Positions 47,479 to 58,986 of a stretch of DNA of 64,000 bases are shown in pieces (the stretch's first letter is position 1; every line of letters starts with the position of its first letter). The stretch is taken from the NCBI GenBank assembly GCA_002718995.2, contig PBGL02000012.1:1-64000 (forward strand), read 5' to 3'. The notes beneath the pieces were generated by a model. It did no database searches and was not told the origin of the DNA. It saw only the letters and a list, made by a program, of their open reading frames with translations. The translations under genes and the position numbers were made by a program. The DNA is from Methanobacteriota archaeon. GTDB taxonomy: Archaea; Thermoplasmatota; Poseidoniia; Poseidoniales; Thalassarchaeaceae.

Positions 47479-48381
47479 TTACTCCCGAAGACGCGCTATT
47501 AGGTCCGCCTTCTTCCCTGAAACTGGCTTTCCAGCAGCCTTGAGTAGTTCCTTTAGTTCGGGGACTTTCATGGAGTCATAATCCACTTCCCCCTCGGACC
47601 CCTCTTCTTCGGACTGGACATCTTCCTCAATCTCATCATCCTCTGAAGGTTCCGAAATATCGGCTGAGGCCTCTGCAGCAGCCAGAACATCGGATTCTTC
47701 GTCCTGTTCAGAGGAAGCCACTTCTTCCGCCTTCTCCTGGGCATGAATCTCCTCAAGAGTTGGTCCTTCTTCCACAACTACTCCAGACTGGATCAACTGG
47801 GTTCTCCTGATCATTACTGCCCTGATTGGAGTAATCTTTGATACGCCTTCCTTGATTATAGCTTCGAGTTCCCCGTCCATTACTGACTTCTGCATGCCCA
47901 CCCATGTCGAGGATGCGCCCGTCTTCAGGATAATGTTCCTTGCAATTGCCCTTATCTCATTCTTCTGGCTTGACTTTGCCCTTTCTCTAGTGAGTATTAG
48001 TGGCTTGAATCTGACATAGAATCCATCTTCTGTGACTATGTCTACAGTGTCATCGATTTTGCCCCTATCCCGGCGTATCTGCCTTCTGATATGGTCCTGC
48101 ATCATCTGATGTCCAATGAACTCGGTTAGGGCGTCAGCCCCCAGTACATCAATAACTCTGAATCTTATTTTGACGTGCATCTTGGAGAAATCGCCATCGA
48201 GTTCATTCTGCATGATCTCAAAGTTTCGACCAATCAACATTTCTGGCTCTTCTGCCAATGTCTCTCCGATTACCCTGAATGACCATGGGTTTCTGGGGGC
48301 CCTGATGGAGTACCAGCGCTTTGACTTCCACTTGTCCCTCTGCCTACGTGCCGCTGCCCTTGCCTTTGCGCCTTTTGCCAT
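47479..48381 (-). CDS. Ribosomal protein eS1 (S3Ae) with acidic linker and C-terminal SAP domain
   Basis: The first 200 residues are the archaeal/eukaryotic eS1 protein of the small subunit: 'KWKSKRWYSIRAPRNPWSFR', 'VIGETLAEEPEMLIGRNFEI', 'HVKIRFRVIDVLGADALTEF' and 'AIARNIILKTGASSTWVGMQ'. A long Glu/Ser/Asp-rich linker (about 215-262) leads to 'DYDSMKVPELKELLKAAGKP' followed by VSGKKADLIARLRE, a complete SAP (SAF-A/B, Acinus, PIAS) helix-extended-helix motif that normally binds DNA or RNA. The ATG at 48381 gives 300 aa and the basic start 'MAKGAKARAAARRQRDKW'. It is transcribed divergently from an RNA-binding protein gene. Confidence 0.93.
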   Translation of the reverse strand: MAKGAKARAAARRQRDKWKSKRWYSIRAPRNPWSFRVIGETLAEEPEMLIGRNFEIMQNELDGDFSKMHVKIRFRVIDVLGADALTEFIGHQMMQDHIRRQIRRDRGKIDDTVDIVTEDGFYVRFKPLILTRERAKSSQKNEIRAIARNIILKTGASSTWVGMQKSVMDGELEAIIKEGVSKITPIRAVMIRRTQLIQSGVVVEEGPTLEEIHAQEKAEEVASSEQDEESDVLAAAEASADISEPSEDDEIEEDVQSEEEGSEGEVDYDSMKVPELKELLKAAGKPVSGKKADLIARLRE

Positions 48382-48468
48382 GACAACAACCTCGTACCTC
48401 GGGGGCTTCCCCGCTCGCTGGCCGTGCGACCTGCCCTTACTATTTGAAACAAAGCCCCTCAGGGAGAT

Positions 48469-50341: not shown

Positions 50342-51343
50342 TCATTTCCCGCGACCCCTGAATGACTTGGGCTTGCGTAGTCTCTTACGTGTCGATGACT
50401 TTTCCCCTATAGCAGCAGGAGATCCTTGGGCGTCACCAGACATTGAGCCACCCAATGTTAGACTACCTTGACTCAGTAGCTGTTCGGTCAAGGAATCAGC
50501 CAATTCCTCATCCTGATCCGGGGTCTTCAGTGCATCCTTGACTGATTGATTATGATCCCTAATGACCCTCTCCCTCTCTTCCTTTCTGGCCCTCATTTCG
50601 TCTCGGGCCTCGTTGACCTCCTTCAGTAGAATCTCAATTTCGGAATGTATGCTGTTTGCTGATTCCCGTGACTCTACAAAAATTGAGTGTAGCCTATCTC
50701 CTTCGGATCTGAGGAAGTCTCTCTCCTCCAACATTGGCTTGACCTCCTCCCAAATCGCATCTGCCTCCTTGTGAGCATCCGTCATAGCTTTGTGCTGTGC
50801 ATCGGCCTCTGCCTTCAAAGACTGAATTGTACTTTCGAGATCCCCCAAATCTATCTTGATATTCTCGAACTCTGCTGCTGCAGGTAGTAACTCATCCCTC
50901 CTGGCAATTAGTGACTTTAGCTCCCTAAGGATTCTGTTCTCGGCCTTTAGAGTGAGGCTCCCATCGGTCATTATTCTATTCTCAATACTGCTGATCTTTG
51001 CTATTGTCTCTGAAAGTGCGACCACTCCGGTCTTCGCCTTTCCTTCATCGCCCTTCTTGCCCCTCTTGTTCGAAATGATTTCCCTGATCCTAGACTGGAT
51101 AGCGTCCCTCTGATTCTGATGGGCCTTGGCTCTCGCCCTGACCTCTTTTTGCTCATTGAGCTTCTCTTCGATGGAAGACCTGAGTTCCTTCCCTTGGTCC
51201 TGAACTGAATTCCTCGAGTCTGCGGCCCTTCTAGCAGATTCATTGTGGGATGCCCTCTGGTCCCTCATTCTCCTTAGACGTGTCTCCATAGCGTGTAGCC
51301 TTGTCCTAAGGTCATCATCAGGACTGCTCTCATCGCTTTGCAT
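50342..51343 (-). CDS. Coiled-coil protein A (COG1340-like)
   Basis: The 333-aa protein is almost entirely charged alpha-helix with heptad character. Examples are 'LRTRLHAMETRLRRMRDQRA', 'SSIEEKLNEQKEVRARAKAH', 'LGDLESTIQSLKAEADAQHK' and 'EILLKEVNEARDEMRARKEE'. It then has a short 'EQLLSQGSLTLGG' segment and a basic tail ('STRKRLRKPKSFRGRGK'). This architecture is shared with three genes on the opposite strand at 55321-58048. COG1340 is a set of archaeal coiled-coil proteins of unknown function, and I assign it by pattern. No membrane span or catalytic motif is present. It is 41 bp downstream of a polytopic membrane protein in what looks like a four-gene operon. Its stop abuts pdxS convergently. 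Confidence 0.8.
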   Translation of the reverse strand: MQSDESSPDDDLRTRLHAMETRLRRMRDQRASHNESARRAADSRNSVQDQGKELRSSIEEKLNEQKEVRARAKAHQNQRDAIQSRIREIISNKRGKKGDEGKAKTGVVALSETIAKISSIENRIMTDGSLTLKAENRILRELKSLIARRDELLPAAAEFENIKIDLGDLESTIQSLKAEADAQHKAMTDAHKEADAIWEEVKPMLEERDFLRSEGDRLHSIFVESRESANSIHSEIEILLKEVNEARDEMRARKEERERVIRDHNQSVKDALKTPDQDEELADSLTEQLLSQGSLTLGGSMSGDAQGSPAAIGEKSSTRKRLRKPKSFRGRGK

Positions 51344-51384
51344 GATGCGTCGAGATGGGCCTCACTATTGAATGGAACTATGCG

Positions 51385-52944
51385 TCAAAGACCCAATAAA
51401 GAGCTGGCGAATGGCACTATTGGAGATAGTACGACAATTGCGGCACCGGCCATGAACATAGCGCCGACCGCTCTCCTAAGTCTCGTGGTCAGATCGTTCC
51501 CGACCTGGACATTGAGAACCCTTCCAGATATCAGATTTCCAGAGTCGTCCTCCAATCTTACAGTCACTGTTGCTTCACCCTTGATTGAGGGGAGCAGGCT
51601 TTGCCAAACTATTCCAGTGTGGTTAGTCATTTCCTGCATCTCCGAAGAGAGAGACGTGGACGACATTGGATCAAAGGATGAGTCCAGGGGTAGTGACCTC
51701 AGTTTATACACGCACTCATTGGGTTTGAAATCCGGAGTCTGTATCTTCAGGAAGAGGTCTTTTGGACCTCCACTCCTATTGAGTACGAATGCGAATAGGT
51801 TAGCCTGGCCTACAACTAAGTTCTCCATGTCGACATCGAACCAAAAGCCCCCGTCTGACTTACTGACGCCCCTCCTCATCCTCATCCGGTCATAGAGCCT
51901 GAAGAATGGTTTACATTCACTTCTAGCATGCATCAACAGCCTGTCCCATGTCTCCTCGCCAAGCTCGGGATGATTGAATAGTCCGTCAATTGCGGGACTC
52001 TCGACAAACATTTCCAGCGAGTCTTTGAATTCCGACTCGGAAATCAATGATGATCTTCTGAGGTGCAGGAGGTGTAGAAGCGATTCTTGAAGCTCAGAAA
52101 TTCCGACTCCCTCCTTCAGCCCGCCCCTAACCGTTTTGATGTACTCGGAAATCCTGATTGTCAGAAGAGGGTCGATATGTGCCTTGATGACGTCATTGAA
52201 TGGGCGGTTCAGTAGAGCGGGATGAATGGGGGGTGAGAATGCCTCAAGCATACCCCACGGCTCCGAGGCATTGAATCTAGCCCGGTGAGATATCAGGTGA
52301 ACTCCCTGTCCTGCCAGTAGGGATCCCGTAGAAAATGAGATCAGTATCGGCATCCCAGTGTCATTGTTAGAGAGCCACAGACTCGTTGCCAGAAGTAATG
52401 CAGAAATTATCATCAATGAAGAGGTTGCAGTTATCTGTCTGATTGAGCCGTCTATAGTAGCTCTCATCTCAGCATAACCATGGGAACTTCGAAAGGTGAT
52501 TCCAGAGGATGTCAATGACTCTGCCTCCAGGTGAAAGATAGAGCGCGAGTATGACATCATTCTGAGGAGAGAAGAGAGCAGGGCGATATCTGCAATTATG
52601 ATTAGTAGTGTTAACGCATATGTAGCGGTGACAAGGCTCAGTCCACCCGATGCATCCCTGAGATGGCTGTCCCACCACTGATTGTCGGTCTCCCCGTAGG
52701 ACTGGGCCACGCCAAACAACACGATTGCGAAGAGCGGGAGCAGCAGGACCAACCTAGCACCGCCACTTATCAGAACTCTATCCAATGTAATCAGTGATCC
52801 TTCCCTTTGTCTCAATGCGACCTCTTTCCAATCGCCACTGCCTCCACTACTGGTGGTTAATATGGCCGACTCTAACTTAGGCGCAGGTGGTGTGAAATCG
52901 GAGATCTCGTCGGCTAAGTCCTCCAGGCTATCTCCGTCGATCAA
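51385..52944 (-). CDS. Polytopic membrane protein in DtxR operon, unknown family
   Basis: No family is recognised. The first 50 residues are soluble and acidic. Spans are visible at about 60-82 ('GARLVLLLPLFAIVLFGVAQ'), 104-128, 172-190 and 195-212. A large soluble region of about 240 residues follows and contains helical ('ISELQESLLHLLHLRRSSLI') and beta-type parts ('NLFAFVLNRSGGPKDLFLKI', 'SIKGEATVTVRLEDDSGNLI'). A last span lies at about 495-515. The start is TTG at 52944, one nucleotide after the stop of the regulator gene, which implies coupling. The beta-rich ectodomain recalls CARDB-like units of the gene further upstream in the operon. Confidence 0.7.
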   Translation of the reverse strand: MIDGDSLEDLADEISDFTPPAPKLESAILTTSSGGSGDWKEVALRQREGSLITLDRVLISGGARLVLLLPLFAIVLFGVAQSYGETDNQWWDSHLRDASGGLSLVTATYALTLLIIIADIALLSSLLRMMSYSRSIFHLEAESLTSSGITFRSSHGYAEMRATIDGSIRQITATSSLMIISALLLATSLWLSNNDTGMPILISFSTGSLLAGQGVHLISHRARFNASEPWGMLEAFSPPIHPALLNRPFNDVIKAHIDPLLTIRISEYIKTVRGGLKEGVGISELQESLLHLLHLRRSSLISESEFKDSLEMFVESPAIDGLFNHPELGEETWDRLLMHARSECKPFFRLYDRMRMRRGVSKSDGGFWFDVDMENLVVGQANLFAFVLNRSGGPKDLFLKIQTPDFKPNECVYKLRSLPLDSSFDPMSSTSLSSEMQEMTNHTGIVWQSLLPSIKGEATVTVRLEDDSGNLISGRVLNVQVGNDLTTRLRRAVGAMFMAGAAIVVLSPIVPFASSLLGL

Positions 52945-52945
52945 A

Positions 52946-53599
52946 TTAATCCCCTCCCACTCTTACCAATATCTTTCTTGAAATGGGGTCGGAAATCTCA
53001 ACCCTATTTCCATCGCAAAATGTTTCTGATTCGCTCTTTAGGATCACTGAACCGATAGAAATCCCGAGTGATTGGAGTGTTTTGGCGTCTGTGGAACCCA
53101 ATGCTATGACCTCCACTATTGACTCCACTCCATCGGGTACGCTTTTGATTGGAAGGAGTAAGCCCGATAGGTCGAAATCAACTGATCTTTCGATTACCGG
53201 TATCTTATTGCCCGAAGGAGTGGTCTCGGGATAGCCCAGCATCCTATCTAATGCAGCTTCTAGTTCGGAATTCATGTCGTGCTCCATCTTACATGCAGCC
53301 TCACTGACATCCCCAGAATATCCTATCACATCGGAAAGGAGTATTTCGAGCAATCCCTCTCTTCTCTTGATTCTGGCCGAAATTTGAAAACCGGAAGGTG
53401 TCAATCTACAACCTCTGTAGGGGATATGGGTTACTAGATCCCTGCTTGCCAACCTCTGGACCATCTCCGTAGCAGATGCTGGGCTAACACCCATCGAACT
53501 TGCTAATTGGGTTGTTTTTAGGATGGAGCCTGGTTTTTTGTCGTGGAACTCAAACATCCTCTTGAGATACATTTCCTCAAATTCACTTAGATCATTCAA
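52946..53599 (-). CDS. DtxR/MntR-family metal-dependent regulator
   Basis: The first 70 residues are a winged helix of the DtxR class: 'FEEMYLKRMFEFHDKKPGSI', 'QLASSMGVSPASATEMVQRL', 'VTHIPYRGCRLTPSGFQISA'. The dimerisation and metal part holds 'CKMEHDMNSELEAALDRML', where Cys, Glu and His correspond to family metal ligands. The C-terminal 60 residues form an SH3/FeoA-like domain ('LGISIGSVILKSESETFCDG'). A Mn(II) or Fe(II) sensor is likely. The start is TTG at 53599, overlapping the upstream stop as TTGA; this start fits the family N-terminus. The 217-aa length is normal. Its position inside the operon suggests it controls the membrane genes around it. Confidence 0.88.
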   Translation of the reverse strand: MNDLSEFEEMYLKRMFEFHDKKPGSILKTTQLASSMGVSPASATEMVQRLASRDLVTHIPYRGCRLTPSGFQISARIKRREGLLEILLSDVIGYSGDVSEAACKMEHDMNSELEAALDRMLGYPETTPSGNKIPVIERSVDFDLSGLLLPIKSVPDGVESIVEVIALGSTDAKTLQSLGISIGSVILKSESETFCDGNRVEISDPISRKILVRVGGD

Positions 53600-55233
53600 C
53601 CGGGCACCCCCTCATTCAATGCCATAAATTCGGCCCTGCATGCAGGGCAACGTGACATCACTGGTCTTCTATCCATTGGTACCTTTAATCTCTGTTCACA
53701 CGAAGGGCAACTAAGGATTTCTTCCGAGGAGCTAGAGCTTAGAATTTTCAGAGGGTCTGGATTTTGGTTAGTTTGTTCCTGTTCGTCCTCCGTAGTCTCT
53801 TCCTCTAATTCTTCGCTTGCAGAATCTGGGACCCCTACCTGGAACTGATTAGTGCAAGACGGACATTTAACCGCACCAACGTGGGATTTAGGGACACTTA
53901 GCCTCTGCTCACATGAGGGGCATATGACCTCCATTTTCTGCACCTCGGCCCTCCTCTCAATTCTTGACTCCCTCCTAAGCTTGAAGGATCCCTCTTCAGT
54001 GGATGGGGTCTTCTCAGAAATTACCCTCCAAACCGCCAGAACGACCATTACGACAACTAGGCCAATCACTGAACCAAGAAGCGCCGCTGATGTATCGAAT
54101 GGTAGTTTGAAACCCTCTGCTGGAGGGTCACGAGTCTGTATCTGAATACTCTGCATAGCAGAGCTATCTCCTGAAATCCAGACTATTTCGACTATCGCAT
54201 CGCCCTCATCTGGCCACACCGGTACAATGAGAGGATAGTTGGATTCTGTACCTGGAGACATTGGGAGTGTATCAGAATTAGACAGGATTAGCCCGTCCGA
54301 CTGTCTGAAGGCGGAAATGGTTCCAGGAAGGGTTTCCGAAATGCCGGAGTTTGCAATTACGCATTCTATAACAAGGGAATCTCCGGGGATGGCGATCTCT
54401 GGTGTTGTGGAGCAAGAAGAAACAGAAGTAGAGATGGTTGGTGGTGTAAGTTGATGTACGACGCTAATATGTTCGGATGGCATCCATCCCACTGGCAAAA
54501 TGGAGAAAGATATTGAGTCGACATCAGGATTCCCAAAGTCGAATGACATGTCCCTAATACCTGGCGATAACACAGCACTATGGACTTGTGATGCCTTTAA
54601 CACGCCCATGTTGTTCAAATCAGCAATGATCTCGACGTCCCTTGAGTGACCATCTGAGAGTAGTACTGAGATTCCGATTTGAAGTCCGTCTGAAAGAGTC
54701 CAGCTCTCACTTTCAACTATCAGTCCTAGGGCCTGAGGAGGGAGCGATTCCACTACTATCGTCCCTGATAGATCATCACTGACGCTATCTGAGGGGCTTA
54801 CTATGGCCCACTGAATCTCAATTTGCCCTGTTGTGTTTAGGGAGAATGTAGCAGATACGTCTCGACTAGATCCAGGACTGATGTTAACGGCCTCGCCAGA
54901 GAGATTTGAAGACCAATTCTCCGAAAACAAATTCATAGACACCTCTCCGGAAGAGTTTCCTTGATTGTGTACCAGAATCGATGCTGTCAAGAGATCTCCC
55001 AAGTGAGCTGGCTCACCGACTATTGCAACCTCGTTAGAGCCAGCAGGGACGAAGGAGTGGCCGGAAGAGTTGCTTGAGAGTCCTGAATAAAAATCGAGTG
55101 TGTCAGAGAATAGCTCTTCATCATGTGAAATCGGATCGTGAATTGGGGCAGCTAGGGATGCTGAGAATGCTAACATAGCGGCCAATAATGGCCCAATGGA
55201 ACTCAATATGTGGTTCTCTGGGCCCTCGCTCAT
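53596..55233 (-). CDS. Membrane protein with CARDB-like ectodomain and two cytoplasmic zinc ribbons
   Basis: The 545-aa protein has an N-terminal signal/anchor (about 9-28) and Ser-rich beta ectodomains. Repeated 'PGD/VxxxVxNxG'-type strands such as 'GDLLTASILVHNQGNSSGEV' and 'GDSLVIECVIANSGISETLP' are CARDB-like. One span (about 383-404, 'LLGSVIGLVVVMVVLAVWRV') and a cytoplasmic tail follow. The tail carries two MJ0042-like zinc ribbons: 'VICPSCEQRLSVPKSHVGAV' with KCPSCTNQF, and 'CPSCEQRLKVPMDRRPVMSR' with CPACRAEF. An acidic linker separates them. The combination of a surface domain with duplicated internal zinc ribbons suggests a sensor or adaptor, but no function is established. It is the first gene of the operon with the regulator. 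Confidence 0.75.
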   Translation of the reverse strand: MSEGPENHILSSIGPLLAAMLAFSASLAAPIHDPISHDEELFSDTLDFYSGLSSNSSGHSFVPAGSNEVAIVGEPAHLGDLLTASILVHNQGNSSGEVSMNLFSENWSSNLSGEAVNISPGSSRDVSATFSLNTTGQIEIQWAIVSPSDSVSDDLSGTIVVESLPPQALGLIVESESWTLSDGLQIGISVLLSDGHSRDVEIIADLNNMGVLKASQVHSAVLSPGIRDMSFDFGNPDVDSISFSILPVGWMPSEHISVVHQLTPPTISTSVSSCSTTPEIAIPGDSLVIECVIANSGISETLPGTISAFRQSDGLILSNSDTLPMSPGTESNYPLIVPVWPDEGDAIVEIVWISGDSSAMQSIQIQTRDPPAEGFKLPFDTSAALLGSVIGLVVVMVVLAVWRVISEKTPSTEEGSFKLRRESRIERRAEVQKMEVICPSCEQRLSVPKSHVGAVKCPSCTNQFQVGVPDSASEELEEETTEDEQEQTNQNPDPLKILSSSSSEEILSCPSCEQRLKVPMDRRPVMSRCPACRAEFMALNEGVPG

Positions 55234-55320
55234 GTTATTCGCTCAGAAAAGGGGCCGTATCAATCAAACCCCTATCAAGGTCACATAGTGACCTTTAACC
55301 GAGTGTTCCGGGTGGGCCGG

Positions 55321-56148
55321 ATGGTTATGGACGCAGAAGGGCTACTAAGGGTCAAACCCGAGGAGTTGGCCGAGGGGCTTCTGACCAGATGGAGGGTTCT
55401 AGACGAACAGCTTCCGGGGGTGATCAGGAACCTCGAGGCGGAAGAAGATGCCCTTTCGCCCAAGGTAGAGAAAGCTGTAGAGTCTCACAGATTAGCCAAT
55501 GAGGCGGTTTCTAGCTTGAAGGATGAAAGGAATGAGTCTCAAAATTTGGCTAGAGCCTTATTGTCCAAAGTAAGGAAGATTGGCGATAGTTTATCTGAAA
55601 CTGGCGGAATGGTGAATCTCGATCCGGGTTGGAAAAAGGAGAAGCTACTAGAAGAACTGGAAGGGATTGAGTCGGAAATAGAGACTTCGGCCCTTGATCA
55701 CAAATCCGAAGGTAGGCTAATTACCCGGAGGAAGAAGCTGATTGGAGAGAACGAGAAGTGGCTCAAAGAAAGGAAAGACGCTAATCCCGAGATGGCCGAA
55801 TATGTTGGGACGCGAAGAGAGATGGTGGCCAACTTCAGGAGGTCTGAGAAGGCCCATACAAAAATGATAGGTGGGGTAAAAAAGGCACAGCCGCTGTATG
55901 AGAAGAAGAATGCCCTACAGGATGAAATTAGAGATGTCCGCAGGCAGTTGGATAGGGCAAAGGAATTGTTATCCCAGTCATCAAGGGCGATTGAGCATTG
56001 GGAAAGGCGCCTCAAGGACGGATTTGGGGACATTGGTTCGGGACATGACGACCTATTAGCGGACATGCATAGGGTAATGTCTGGAGGGGCATCCTCATTT
56101 TCCAAGAAAGGAAGGAGGAATATACGAAAGGCGGGTGAGGAGGAATGA
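55321..56148 (+). CDS. Coiled-coil protein B (COG1340-like)
   Basis: The product (275 aa from the ATG at 55321; a second ATG is at 55327) is nearly all charged helix: 'LLTRWRVLDEQLPGVIRNLE', 'DERNESQNLARALLSKVRKI', 'LEGIESEIETSALDHKSEGR' and 'LQDEIRDVRRQLDRAKELLS'. It ends with 'MHRVMSGGASSFSKKGRRN', comparable with the C-terminal short motif and basic tail of the coiled-coil gene at 50342. The frame is open to 55210 but would cover the divergent promoter region, so the shorter start is preferred. Its last bases overlap the next gene as ATGA. The function is unknown. Confidence 0.75.
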   Translation: MVMDAEGLLRVKPEELAEGLLTRWRVLDEQLPGVIRNLEAEEDALSPKVEKAVESHRLANEAVSSLKDERNESQNLARALLSKVRKIGDSLSETGGMVNLDPGWKKEKLLEELEGIESEIETSALDHKSEGRLITRRKKLIGENEKWLKERKDANPEMAEYVGTRREMVANFRRSEKAHTKMIGGVKKAQPLYEKKNALQDEIRDVRRQLDRAKELLSQSSRAIEHWERRLKDGFGDIGSGHDDLLADMHRVMSGGASSFSKKGRRNIRKAGEEE

Positions 56149-57110
56149 GCAAATCACCAGAGTCTTCATTCGAGGATTTGGAGGATTTAGATGGTCATGA
56201 ATTGCAAGAAATTTATGGGGGCCTCGAGAGGCAAATTAGATCCCTAGAGAGTCAGAAAAGAGAGCTGAGGGAAGAGAGGGGGGATTTAGTCAGTCAAGTC
56301 AAGATTCTTCGTGGTGCAGTTGGACAAATCGAGGGAGCTAATTCTGAGAGGAGGGGGTTACTGAGAGAATTCCACGAAATCAGAAAGGCTGCCGACAAAT
56401 CAAGGTCAAAGAGGGATCGGGTGAATGTCCTCATACCTCCTCCCGTCGATGTTCTCAACGAATGGTTGTCAGAAACATATAGGAGATTGACCACGATTGA
56501 CAATGACCTTACGGCCGTACCTACCCTCCCAAGGGAGCTTGATGCTTTTCGTAGGTTCTTCGAAATTCAAGCTGCAATTTTCATGAAGGCGGAGTCTGAA
56601 ACGGCCCACTCCGATTATGTCAGCAACGTTAAGAAAATGAAGGAAATTACCTCGAAACTGGATCAGGGGAAAAAGGAGAACGAGGGGGTAACTAGCAAGG
56701 CTCAGGAGGAATCGGGGGTCGAGTCTGAGAATATTTCTAGATCTGAAATCAGAAAGACTAGCAATAGAATATCCAAAATCGACAAGAGGCTAGAGAAAAT
56801 TGATTCCGAAAGAAGGGAGCTGAGGAAGGAGCTCGGAAGGGTAAAGGCATATCGAAGAATCACGGGCGGCAGAAATAGGAAGATTCGCTTCTCGGAGATA
56901 AAGGATAAGGCAAAGACTGGAGGTAAGTTGAGCACTGTTGAACTGGATGCTTTATTGGGTTCAGGGAGTCTGTCTGATCTTGCTTCCTCTAAATCTGAAC
57001 CATCTGGGACAAAGGTGGACGAGGCCCCTACTGGTCGCCGAAGAAGGCGTCTGGGAGTCTCTAGAAGGGGTCCGAGAAAGGGAAATCTCGCCAGTAAGAG
57101 GGAAGACTAG
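56145..57110 (+). CDS. Coiled-coil protein C (COG1340-like) with basic C-terminus
   Basis: The 321-aa protein has heptad-rich helices ('GLERQIRSLESQKRELREER', 'SRSEIRKTSNRISKIDKRLE' and 'SERRELRKELGRVKAYRRIT'). It then has a 'KTGGKLSTVELDALLGSGSL' element and a strongly basic tail ('TGRRRRRLGVSRRGPRKGN'). The element and tail parallel those of coiled-coil A, which suggests nucleic-acid or membrane-phosphate contact. It overlaps coiled-coil B by 4 bp and is followed by coiled-coil D, so the three make a run. No enzymatic motif is present. Confidence 0.75.
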   Translation: MSKSPESSFEDLEDLDGHELQEIYGGLERQIRSLESQKRELREERGDLVSQVKILRGAVGQIEGANSERRGLLREFHEIRKAADKSRSKRDRVNVLIPPPVDVLNEWLSETYRRLTTIDNDLTAVPTLPRELDAFRRFFEIQAAIFMKAESETAHSDYVSNVKKMKEITSKLDQGKKENEGVTSKAQEESGVESENISRSEIRKTSNRISKIDKRLEKIDSERRELRKELGRVKAYRRITGGRNRKIRFSEIKDKAKTGGKLSTVELDALLGSGSLSDLASSKSEPSGTKVDEAPTGRRRRRLGVSRRGPRKGNLASKRED

Positions 57111-57160
57111 AGTTCATTGTCCTGCTATGCCCTTATATGGAATTTCAAACTCGCAATCAA

Positions 57161-57165
57161 GGAGG
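57161..57165 (+). promoter_or_regulatory. Ribosome binding site deciding a GTG start
   Basis: GGAGG lies seven bases upstream of GTG at 57173. A TATA-like TTATATGG is at 57132-57139, about 35 bp from the GTG, so a local promoter is possible. Together these favour GTG at 57173 over the ATG at 57137. Confidence 0.5.
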
Positions 57166-57172
57166 AAATACT

Positions 57173-58048
57173 GTGGAATACTCAGAAGTTCGTGAGTTGT
57201 TTCGACCGGTGTGCCAATCGATTGAGTCCGATCTAGATGGGAGGAAGGAAGACAGGGACGAGTTTAACGCCAAAGTAAGAACCTACTTGGATAGCAGAAA
57301 TGAAGTGAATAGGCAGGTTAAGGAATTGATTTCCGAAGTTAGGAGCCAGAAGGAAATCAGGGATTTGGCAAATTCTAAAGTAAAGGATTTGAAGATAGTA
57401 AGATCGGAGAAATCTGATGAGCTGAAAGTAATTAGAACGGAGCTCAGATCTAAGTTGGCTGAAGAAGATCATGATGATAAGAGGGGGAGGAGGCCATCTG
57501 GTCCGCCACCGTCAAAAATTAGGTCAAAAATGGACGCATTGGAGAGGAAGTACGAAAGAGGCGGATTCACGGGAGCAAGTGAGAAGAAGTTCTTCAGGGA
57601 AATGAAGAAGCTGAAGCAGGAGCTTACTGAAGCGATTGAGAGGAATAAGTCAAGCGGTGGCCTAGGCGAATTGAAGACCAAAGTGAGGGAAGCTGAAAGG
57701 TTACAAGAAGATGCTCATAATCGAGTAGAAAGGGCGGTAATGGAGGCGCAAGAGGCGCACGACTTGATGGTGGAATTGTCGGACGAGGTAGATAGGCTTA
57801 GGGAGCGCGCTAATTCAGCGCACTCAGGCCTTACAAAGTCGAAAAGGGAGGCTGACGCGCTTCACAATCTTTACATCGTTTCACTGAGGTGCATACACTC
57901 TATGCAGGACCTTATGAAAGCCATAGACGCAAGAGAAGGGGGAGAGGTCGATGGAGAGAGCAAGACCGAGGTTACTGACCTGATGTCGAGACTGATGTCT
58001 GGAGATACACTTTCTACGGACGAACTGATGTCTCTTCAGAGGAACTAG
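57173..58048 (+). CDS. Coiled-coil protein D (COG1340-like)
   Basis: The 291-aa product starts with 'VEYSEVRELFRPVCQSIESD' and has long charged helices ('LDSRNEVNRQVKELISEVRS', 'LKTKVREAERLQEDAHNRVE', 'AHDLMVELSDEVDRLRERAN'). It closes with 'VTDLMSRLMSGDTLSTDELM' and SLQRN, again a short Leu-Ser-Gly/Leu-Ser/Thr-Glu-Leu element like those of proteins A and C. GTG at 57173 is chosen because GGAGG precedes it at seven bases. The stop overlaps the convergent unknown gene at 58045 by 4 bp. No catalytic motif or span was found. Confidence 0.75.
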   Translation: MEYSEVRELFRPVCQSIESDLDGRKEDRDEFNAKVRTYLDSRNEVNRQVKELISEVRSQKEIRDLANSKVKDLKIVRSEKSDELKVIRTELRSKLAEEDHDDKRGRRPSGPPPSKIRSKMDALERKYERGGFTGASEKKFFREMKKLKQELTEAIERNKSSGGLGELKTKVREAERLQEDAHNRVERAVMEAQEAHDLMVELSDEVDRLRERANSAHSGLTKSKREADALHNLYIVSLRCIHSMQDLMKAIDAREGGEVDGESKTEVTDLMSRLMSGDTLSTDELMSLQRN

Positions 58049-58986
58049 TCATCGATTGGAAAGGTCCTGCCGTTCACACCATGCAGGATTACCCCCTCCC
58101 TCCCTTGAGTGTCGATGGCCCACCCAGGTATTCCGAGCATCCTTTTGGATACAGATAATGAGTCGGTATCCACTCTCCACCATTCAAGCATTATGCTCCT
58201 TACTGGACCTTCATCTGCTTCACTTCCACCTTGCATCTTCTTGTCTAGGATGGATGGTAATCTGTCCAACAAGGCGCCTTCTGACAACCACTTACTAATT
58301 GGCGGTTCAACCATCCTAATCATGACATTTGCATTTTCCGATATCTCTTCACGGAGCCCTAGTGATGAAGCCCATGGATCCTCAATTACTTCCCAACTTG
58401 AGGGTAGCCTATCTCCCTCTGGACCAGTCAGAAACCCCTCAATCTTCCAAATCCTGGCTTTGAGTAAAATCGGCGACGTTAGAGACCCTTCCCTGCCTGA
58501 TTGGATTAACCATGAGTCAACATCCACGATTGCTGGGGTGATTGGAATCATCCCTTTGTCCTCTGGCAAATGTTCAGCTATGGGCTCTAAATCATCAACT
58601 TCACTGACCATAGGCCTTCCAGCAACTAATTCTCCTGAAATTACGGCATCCCCTATCCACCTGGAGAGTTTCTCGGGAGGCCATACTACTAATTCAATTC
58701 CAGATGGAACATTTTCCTGGAATCCTTCTGGTAAATCGCGTTCACATAGTATCCAATTTCTTCCAAGGGGTGCGTCGACACACCACCTTTCGAAATCGGC
58801 ACCAGAAATTGGCACCATCCCAGACTCGACGTGCCAAACGAAAACTGCTGATTCGTTTGAGATACCGATCTCGGGGACCTTCTCTGCAATACCCAAAAAT
58901 CTGAATTCGGGGATTTCAAGTACCTCTGAGGGGAGCTCCATCCTTACCCCTCTTGACGAGAGAAGGGCGCGAACCGCTTCTTCCAT
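58045..58986 (-). CDS. Conserved-looking protein of unknown function
   Basis: The 313-aa protein has no signal peptide or span. Its N-terminal third looks like an alpha/beta nuclease-type fold with beta strands and acidic residues ('AVFVWHVESGMVPISGADFE', 'RNWILCERDLPEGF', 'GIELVVWPPEKLSRWIGDAV'), but I cannot name a family. The middle and C-terminal parts are Trp/Pro-rich. The ATG at 58986 is used; an in-frame ATG 15 codons on would also work. It is convergent with coiled-coil D (4-bp overlap), and the eL30 gene lies on the same strand upstream. Confidence 0.6.
   Translation of the reverse strand: MEEAVRALLSSRGVRMELPSEVLEIPEFRFLGIAEKVPEIGISNESAVFVWHVESGMVPISGADFERWCVDAPLGRNWILCERDLPEGFQENVPSGIELVVWPPEKLSRWIGDAVISGELVAGRPMVSEVDDLEPIAEHLPEDKGMIPITPAIVDVDSWLIQSGREGSLTSPILLKARIWKIEGFLTGPEGDRLPSSWEVIEDPWASSLGLREEISENANVMIRMVEPPISKWLSEGALLDRLPSILDKKMQGGSEADEGPVRSIMLEWWRVDTDSLSVSKRMLGIPGWAIDTQGREGVILHGVNGRTFPIDD

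Follow-up and report, generated by a model that had tools for sequence, protein, structure and literature searches.

Why should four highly charged, nearly all-helical proteins be encoded around an operon for membrane proteins and a DtxR-type regulator? The question is raised by positions 50342 to 58048 of a stretch of 64,000 nucleotides (hereafter the window) from contig PBGL02000012.1 of assembly GCA_002718995.2, an archaeon of the order Poseidoniales. An earlier note on this DNA had proposed that the locus encodes a metal-responsive, envelope-associated filament, scaffold or tether. We favour another answer, to which we give a probability of about 0.4: the locus would be a single Poseidoniales module, a scaffold docked at the membrane and binding RNA or ribosomes. 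Its features are the following.

50342..51343, minus strand: ccA, a coiled-coil protein of 333 residues, distant DUF7121 paralogue, with a basic C-terminal tail
51385..52944, minus strand: memB, a membrane protein of 519 residues with about 5 transmembrane helices and an immunoglobulin-like (Ig-like) beta-sandwich domain, of no Pfam family
52946..53599, minus strand: DtxR-family regulator, matching the Pfam domains Fe_dep_repress (1.3e-13) and Fe_dep_repr_C (2.2e-17)
53596..55233, minus strand: cardb, with a secreted, CARDB-like or Ig-like ectodomain, one transmembrane helix and two cytoplasmic zinc ribbons
55277..55295, no strand: perfect palindrome AAGGTCAC-ATA-GTGACCTT in the divergent promoter, a candidate operator
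55321..56148, plus strand: ccC, a DUF7121-related coiled-coil protein of 275 residues with EEE at its C-terminus
56145..57110, plus strand: ccD, a coiled-coil protein of 321 residues with a basic tail
57137..58048, plus strand: ccE, a DUF7121 (PF23435) coiled-coil protein of 303 residues with the C-terminal end LMSGDTLSTDELMSLQ
58045..58986, minus strand: P8, a protein of 313 residues of no known family, conserved as a neighbour only in the window's own family

The layout given in the earlier note was recovered: four helical coiled-coil proteins of 275-333 residues, flanking a minus-strand operon of memB, the DtxR-family gene and cardb, and tightly packed genes, with a 4-bp overlap between ccC and ccD and a TTGA overlap coupling cardb to the regulator gene. 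The start of ccC was set at the ATG at 55321, the open reading frame opening further upstream at a GTG at 55210.

Is this arrangement a unit? Both ccE and ccA were matched in 113 of the 116 Poseidoniales genomes, covering 21 of 21 genera. Synteny was counted over 40 loci, either fetched or the window itself, from the window's own family (f1) and its sister family (f2); genera are designated below by g numbers. The divergent order of ccA/cardb versus ccC/ccD was present in 39 of the 40 loci, ccE shared its strand with ccC in 39 of 41, and ccC and ccD overlapped by 4 bp in 32 of the 40 loci carrying both genes. The neighbourhood is conserved throughout Poseidoniales, in both families, as the earlier proposal required.

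Such an order might also persist among genes with no joint function if rearrangement is slow in streamlined genomes. Consistent with this, the upstream flank (ferredoxin and pdxS) is likewise largely syntenic and kept in most loci, so that synteny by itself is no proof of joint function; in addition, the g7 and g11 loci have no memB, and ccE is set apart by intervening genes in several genera. However, synteny to the right of ccE is lost between f1 and f2 and the ccA-cardb/ccC-ccD order is not, ccC and ccD are reduced together in genus g13, and there is a single shared palindrome. We consider this explanation rather unlikely.

The earlier proposal also depended on the four coiled-coil proteins being related, and an all-against-all profile comparison bears this out. 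Profile-profile alignment with HHalign gave probabilities of 98.1-99.5% for the pairs ccA-ccC, ccA-ccD (98.9%), ccA-ccE and ccC-ccE, 91.5% for ccD-ccE and 18.8% for ccC-ccD. The controls from the same locus (memB, P8 and the DtxR protein) scored 0-1%; they are not coiled coils, so the signal between the paralogues may be partly compositional. By these profiles ccA, ccC, ccD and ccE are assigned to one family, ccD being joined through ccA and weakly through ccE. Only part of this relatedness is visible to Pfam: ccE exceeds the DUF7121 cut-off (45.1 versus 29 bits), ccA of the window stays under it at 15.9 bits, and ccC and ccD of the window have no DUF7121 match. In f2, ccA passes (33.9 bits) and ccC remains below (22.8 bits). 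The placement of ccA, ccC and ccD thus rests on the profile-profile comparison. When ccE was used as a query against the window genome, only its paralogues of the same locus were matched.

The C-terminal ends of these proteins are distinctive. The basic tails that had been noticed on two of them belong to ccA and ccD and are both conserved, with a mean net charge over the last 40 residues of +8.4 and +11.1, respectively. The terminal acidic EEE of ccC, not remarked on in the earlier note, is present in 26 of 31 sequences, and the end of ccE, LMSGxTLSTEELMxLQ, is conserved, with its LSxxEL motif in 40 of 40. A motif of this type had been assigned to three of the proteins; ccE and ccD carry it clearly, ccA in a degenerate form (GSLTLGG). 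The structure model of ccE is a long helical hairpin (predicted local distance difference test score, pLDDT, 87.7). A fold search with this model returned generic coils, with SMC arm coils among the top matches and none with E <=0.001; when ccE or the family profile was searched against PDB sequences, the matches were generic coiled coils only.

The strongest clue to an RNA role comes from the sister family. In most f2 genera ccD reaches about 700 residues, of which the N-terminal 350 form a terminal nucleotidyltransferase of the Cid1/TUT4/URT1 type. Both the catalytic palm and the PAP-associated domain were detected above the Pfam cut-off (MTPAP-like_central, 4.8e-30; PAP_assoc, 3.3e-11). The domain matched the human TUT7 chain at 3.5e-56, and the f2 family profile matched TUT4 at 4e-88 and plant URT1, over its full length, at 2e-72. 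The catalytic aspartates D102, D104 and D156 are invariant and the GSS motif is present; the IEDPF-x2-H motif occurs in most rows, the His after IEDPF not being found in all of them. The f2 enzyme is probably a uridylyltransferase.

Wherever the nucleotidyltransferase was found, it was fused to ccD. When 84,980 prokaryote species were scanned, 80 loci were retained, and nearly without exception they hold this Poseidoniales gene; no credible host outside Poseidoniales came up, the scan patterns having been derived from Poseidoniales so that remote homologues may have been missed. One record, L191, labelled as a Rhodobiaceae metagenome-assembled genome, carries the Poseidoniales nucleotidyltransferase gene, probably through a misbinned contig. 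In the rest of the phylum outside f2, only weak matches to the palm model were detected. By parsimony on the locus tree the fusion pattern needs two changes, which we read as a gain after the split from g17, g20 and g21 and a loss inside g13. In the latter genus, some genomes carry the enzyme and others lack it (L221, L222, L227 and L229 versus the other g13 loci), a natural contrast that bears on its function. Shortening or divergence affects ccC and ccD there whether or not the nucleotidyltransferase is present, so their decay does not simply track its loss.

A second clue comes from the neighbours of DUF7121 in other archaea. The family was matched in 239 of 243 Thermoplasmatota genomes and in the Haloferax, Sulfolobus and Methanosarcina controls, and its C-terminal LSTEELMxLQ end is found across Thermoplasmatota. 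DUF7121 probably corresponds to arCOG01159 (COG1340), a coiled-coil protein placed among the uncharacterised ones of top priority and present in 492 of 524 archaeal genomes (PMC6393860); no functional description of COG1340, DUF7121, arCOG01159 or the Poseidoniales coiled-coil proteins was found in the literature searched. We read 20 DUF7121 loci of non-Poseidoniales Thermoplasmatota, all of which lack the membrane genes of the Poseidoniales locus; one example of each neighbour gene was checked against Pfam and the remainder were read by eye. The single-copy ccE orthologue adjoins SRP54, mostly together with TrmY, in six Thermoplasmatota loci, and an MBF1-like helix-turn-helix gene with Sua5 in four; in Marine Group III (MGIII) it lies directly downstream of the ribosomal L1-L10-L12 genes (rpl1-rpl10-rpl12). 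All three contexts belong to translation or protein targeting. The MGIII proteins (L111, L112 and L114) are extended at the N-terminus; in L112 the extension was called as a SAP domain. Taken together, the basic tails, the ccD fusion and these neighbours suggest a link with RNA or ribosomes.

The same data bear on the idea of a nucleoid or chromosome accessory, in which the coiled coils would be SMC-like spacers acting with transcription. Profile similarity to SMC/Rad50, the SMC arm coils among the top fold matches, the SAP domain of the MGIII homologue and the presence of rpoA1/A2 next door in f1 would all fit. Nevertheless, no ATPase head or hinge was found, the SMC matches fall far under the curated cut-offs, as is typical of coiled coils, and the fused nucleotidyltransferase is of an RNA-acting family. 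This role is distinctly improbable.

How would the coiled coils be attached to the membrane? The cytoplasmic zinc ribbons attributed to cardb were confirmed: two double-CxxC ribbons follow the transmembrane helix, and four CxxC are present in 39 of 40 relatives. The CARDB label stands less firmly, the window protein scoring 16.7 bits against a Pfam cut-off of 22.7; the f2 homologue scores 36.1 bits. For memB, the structure model (pLDDT 85.7) has a C-terminal domain that a fold search identified as a generic Ig-like sandwich of the complement and transglutaminase types; for the rest of the protein the search gave noise.

These two conserved membrane proteins, one of them with cytoplasmic zinc ribbons, speak for the original proposal of a metal-responsive filament, scaffold or tether, by which coiled coils recruited to membrane proteins would serve shape or the organisation of the envelope and have no role in RNA; the long hairpins and the metal-ligand residues of the DtxR protein are also in its favour. 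Against it, no filament family was matched above the cut-offs in Pfam or NCBIfam, and the fold matches are those of a generic hairpin coiled coil, so that no homologue supports a filament. DUF7121 is nearly universal in Thermoplasmatota, where the loci read do without these membrane genes, and ccD is fused to an RNA-tailing enzyme. We regard the envelope proposal as unlikely.

What, then, could the regulator control? Both the winged-helix and the dimerisation domains of DtxR proteins are present. Among the metal ligands, C103 is conserved in 36 of 39 sequences, E106 and H107 in 39 of 39, and position 10 is M or E in most; ancillary metal-site residues (E81, S99) are lost in the window protein. 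The 19-bp palindrome, likewise absent from the earlier note, lies between the ATG of cardb (55233) and that of ccC (55321), 44 bp and 26 bp before them, respectively. It is the sole perfect copy in the 1.48 Mb window genome, the next two sites having three mismatches each. Allowing up to one mismatch, it was found in 29 of 79 f1 genomes, in about 26 of them at the same site of the locus; the reversed pattern, used as a control, matched in two genomes. It is perfect in g1, g3 and g6 and near-perfect in g9, with variation at the three central bases. Other palindromes, for instance CCCACCCTTAAGGGTGGG in g15, were considered as operators in the remaining genera and set aside, as they are not shared.

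Since the palindrome is single in the genome and occurs at the same site in about 25 relatives, the regulator is probably dedicated to the locus, a local role being the simplest reading of a unique site. The suggestion of DtxR control of the locus thereby gains support, both from the conserved metal ligands and from the fact that the palindrome is unique and lies in the promoter region common to the two divergent operons, although it is recognisable in only four genera. One could go further and see the whole locus as serving metal homeostasis or metal stress, its membrane proteins binding metal and being under the regulator's control: M/E10, C103, E106 and H107, the zinc ribbons and the palindrome between the operons agree with it. 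Yet the palindrome has no copies by other genes, neither memB nor cardb matches a metal transporter, and the window's DtxR protein no longer has the ancillary site. We find this very improbable.

The RNA- or ribosome-binding scaffold that we favour could work as follows. The four DUF7121-type hairpin paralogues, the zinc-ribbon membrane protein, usually the second, Ig-like, membrane protein and the DtxR-type regulator would make up one module. Its coiled coils would assemble into an elongated hetero-assembly, bind RNA or ribosomes through the basic tails, and be held at the inner face of the membrane by memB, by the CARDB-like protein through its zinc-ribbon tail, or by both. The regulator would act, perhaps as a metal-responsive repressor, at one palindrome between the divergent operons in at least four genera. 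In f2, a terminal nucleotidyltransferase would have been added to the scaffold at the N-terminus of ccD, allowing the RNA held by the scaffold to be tagged at the 3' end. A narrower form of the proposal, namely an RNA/ribosome surveillance module built on DUF7121 in which f2 uses a eukaryote-type terminal uridylyltransferase (TUTase) for 3' uridylylation or adenylylation, is possible and is put forward more tentatively.

Several observations weigh against this scaffold, beside the syntenic ferredoxin/pdxS flank. The nucleotidyltransferase has no match in the window genome or in any f1 genome searched, so that the strongest RNA clue is indirect for the window locus; this absence looks like the ancestral state. 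Many f2 genomes, in g13, have in turn lost the enzyme. No RNA-binding domain was detected in the window proteins. The translation-gene neighbours amount to three lineage-level contexts rather than to many independent ones, and arCOG01159, probably the same family, has been listed as linked to phosphoserine phosphatase instead (PMC6393860). Finally, the palindrome is not recognisable in genera other than those named, even in some with similar recognition helices.

Among the neighbouring genes, P8 adjoins the locus in 17 of 18 f1 loci versus 0 of 22 f2 loci and probably lies outside the core module; it has no Pfam match and one NCBIfam match, sub-threshold. A KaiC-like ATPase gene occurs near ccE in four loci (L048:5229-5957, L049:5468-6178, L054:12181-12876 and L056:13297-13989), the assignment having been tested with PF06745 for L048, which the other three resemble. 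A GNAT acetyltransferase-like gene lies immediately downstream of ccD in f2 and g5. In the window, ribosomal protein eS1 (S3Ae), at 47479-48411 on the minus strand, has a C-terminal SAP domain.

The earlier note knew of no described system of this composition, and our literature search found none either; the parts are known families or families of unknown function. An archaeal TUTase was likewise absent from the papers searched, and the ccD fusion is unmentioned in the main text of a survey of archaeal fusion proteins (PMC11237513). DUF7121, probably arCOG01159, is among the most widespread uncharacterised archaeal proteins; the locus offers it candidate partners and a candidate operator, and the ccD domain fusion suggests an RNA function for it. 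A Cid1/TUT4-type archaeal enzyme would extend the tailing of RNA 3' ends to this domain of life. The hosts of the locus are among the most abundant archaea of the surface ocean.

Compared with known systems, the regulator resembles DtxR and MntR in its two Pfam domains and its metal ligands, and differs in having apparently only one site in the window genome instead of a metal regulon. A functional parallel for the proposed scaffold is the all-helical eukaryotic Bfr1 family, Bfr1 being an mRNA-binding protein associated with polysomes and the endoplasmic reticulum and devoid of a canonical RNA-binding domain (PMC6940804, PMC7025706). Aligned with the ccA profile, an unverified Bfr1 sequence shared an SGxLSL..EK..+KEM..L core at a sub-threshold level (HHalign E 8e-5, probability 49-61%), which 1-2 of 2000 block-shuffled decoys equalled or exceeded; possible homology is a lead only. 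The predicted f2 enzyme is like the eukaryotic Cid1, TUT4, TUT7 and URT1 in its homology over the full catalytic and PAP-associated regions, its invariant triad and, mostly, its IEDPF-x2-H motif; it differs in being archaeal, fused to a coiled coil and restricted to f2. Lastly, ccE is a DUF7121 protein by its score and its LSTEELMxLQ end. Elsewhere in the Thermoplasmatota loci read, this family is a single gene beside translation genes, whereas in Poseidoniales it comprises four paralogues that have diverged and are accompanied by membrane partners and a regulator.

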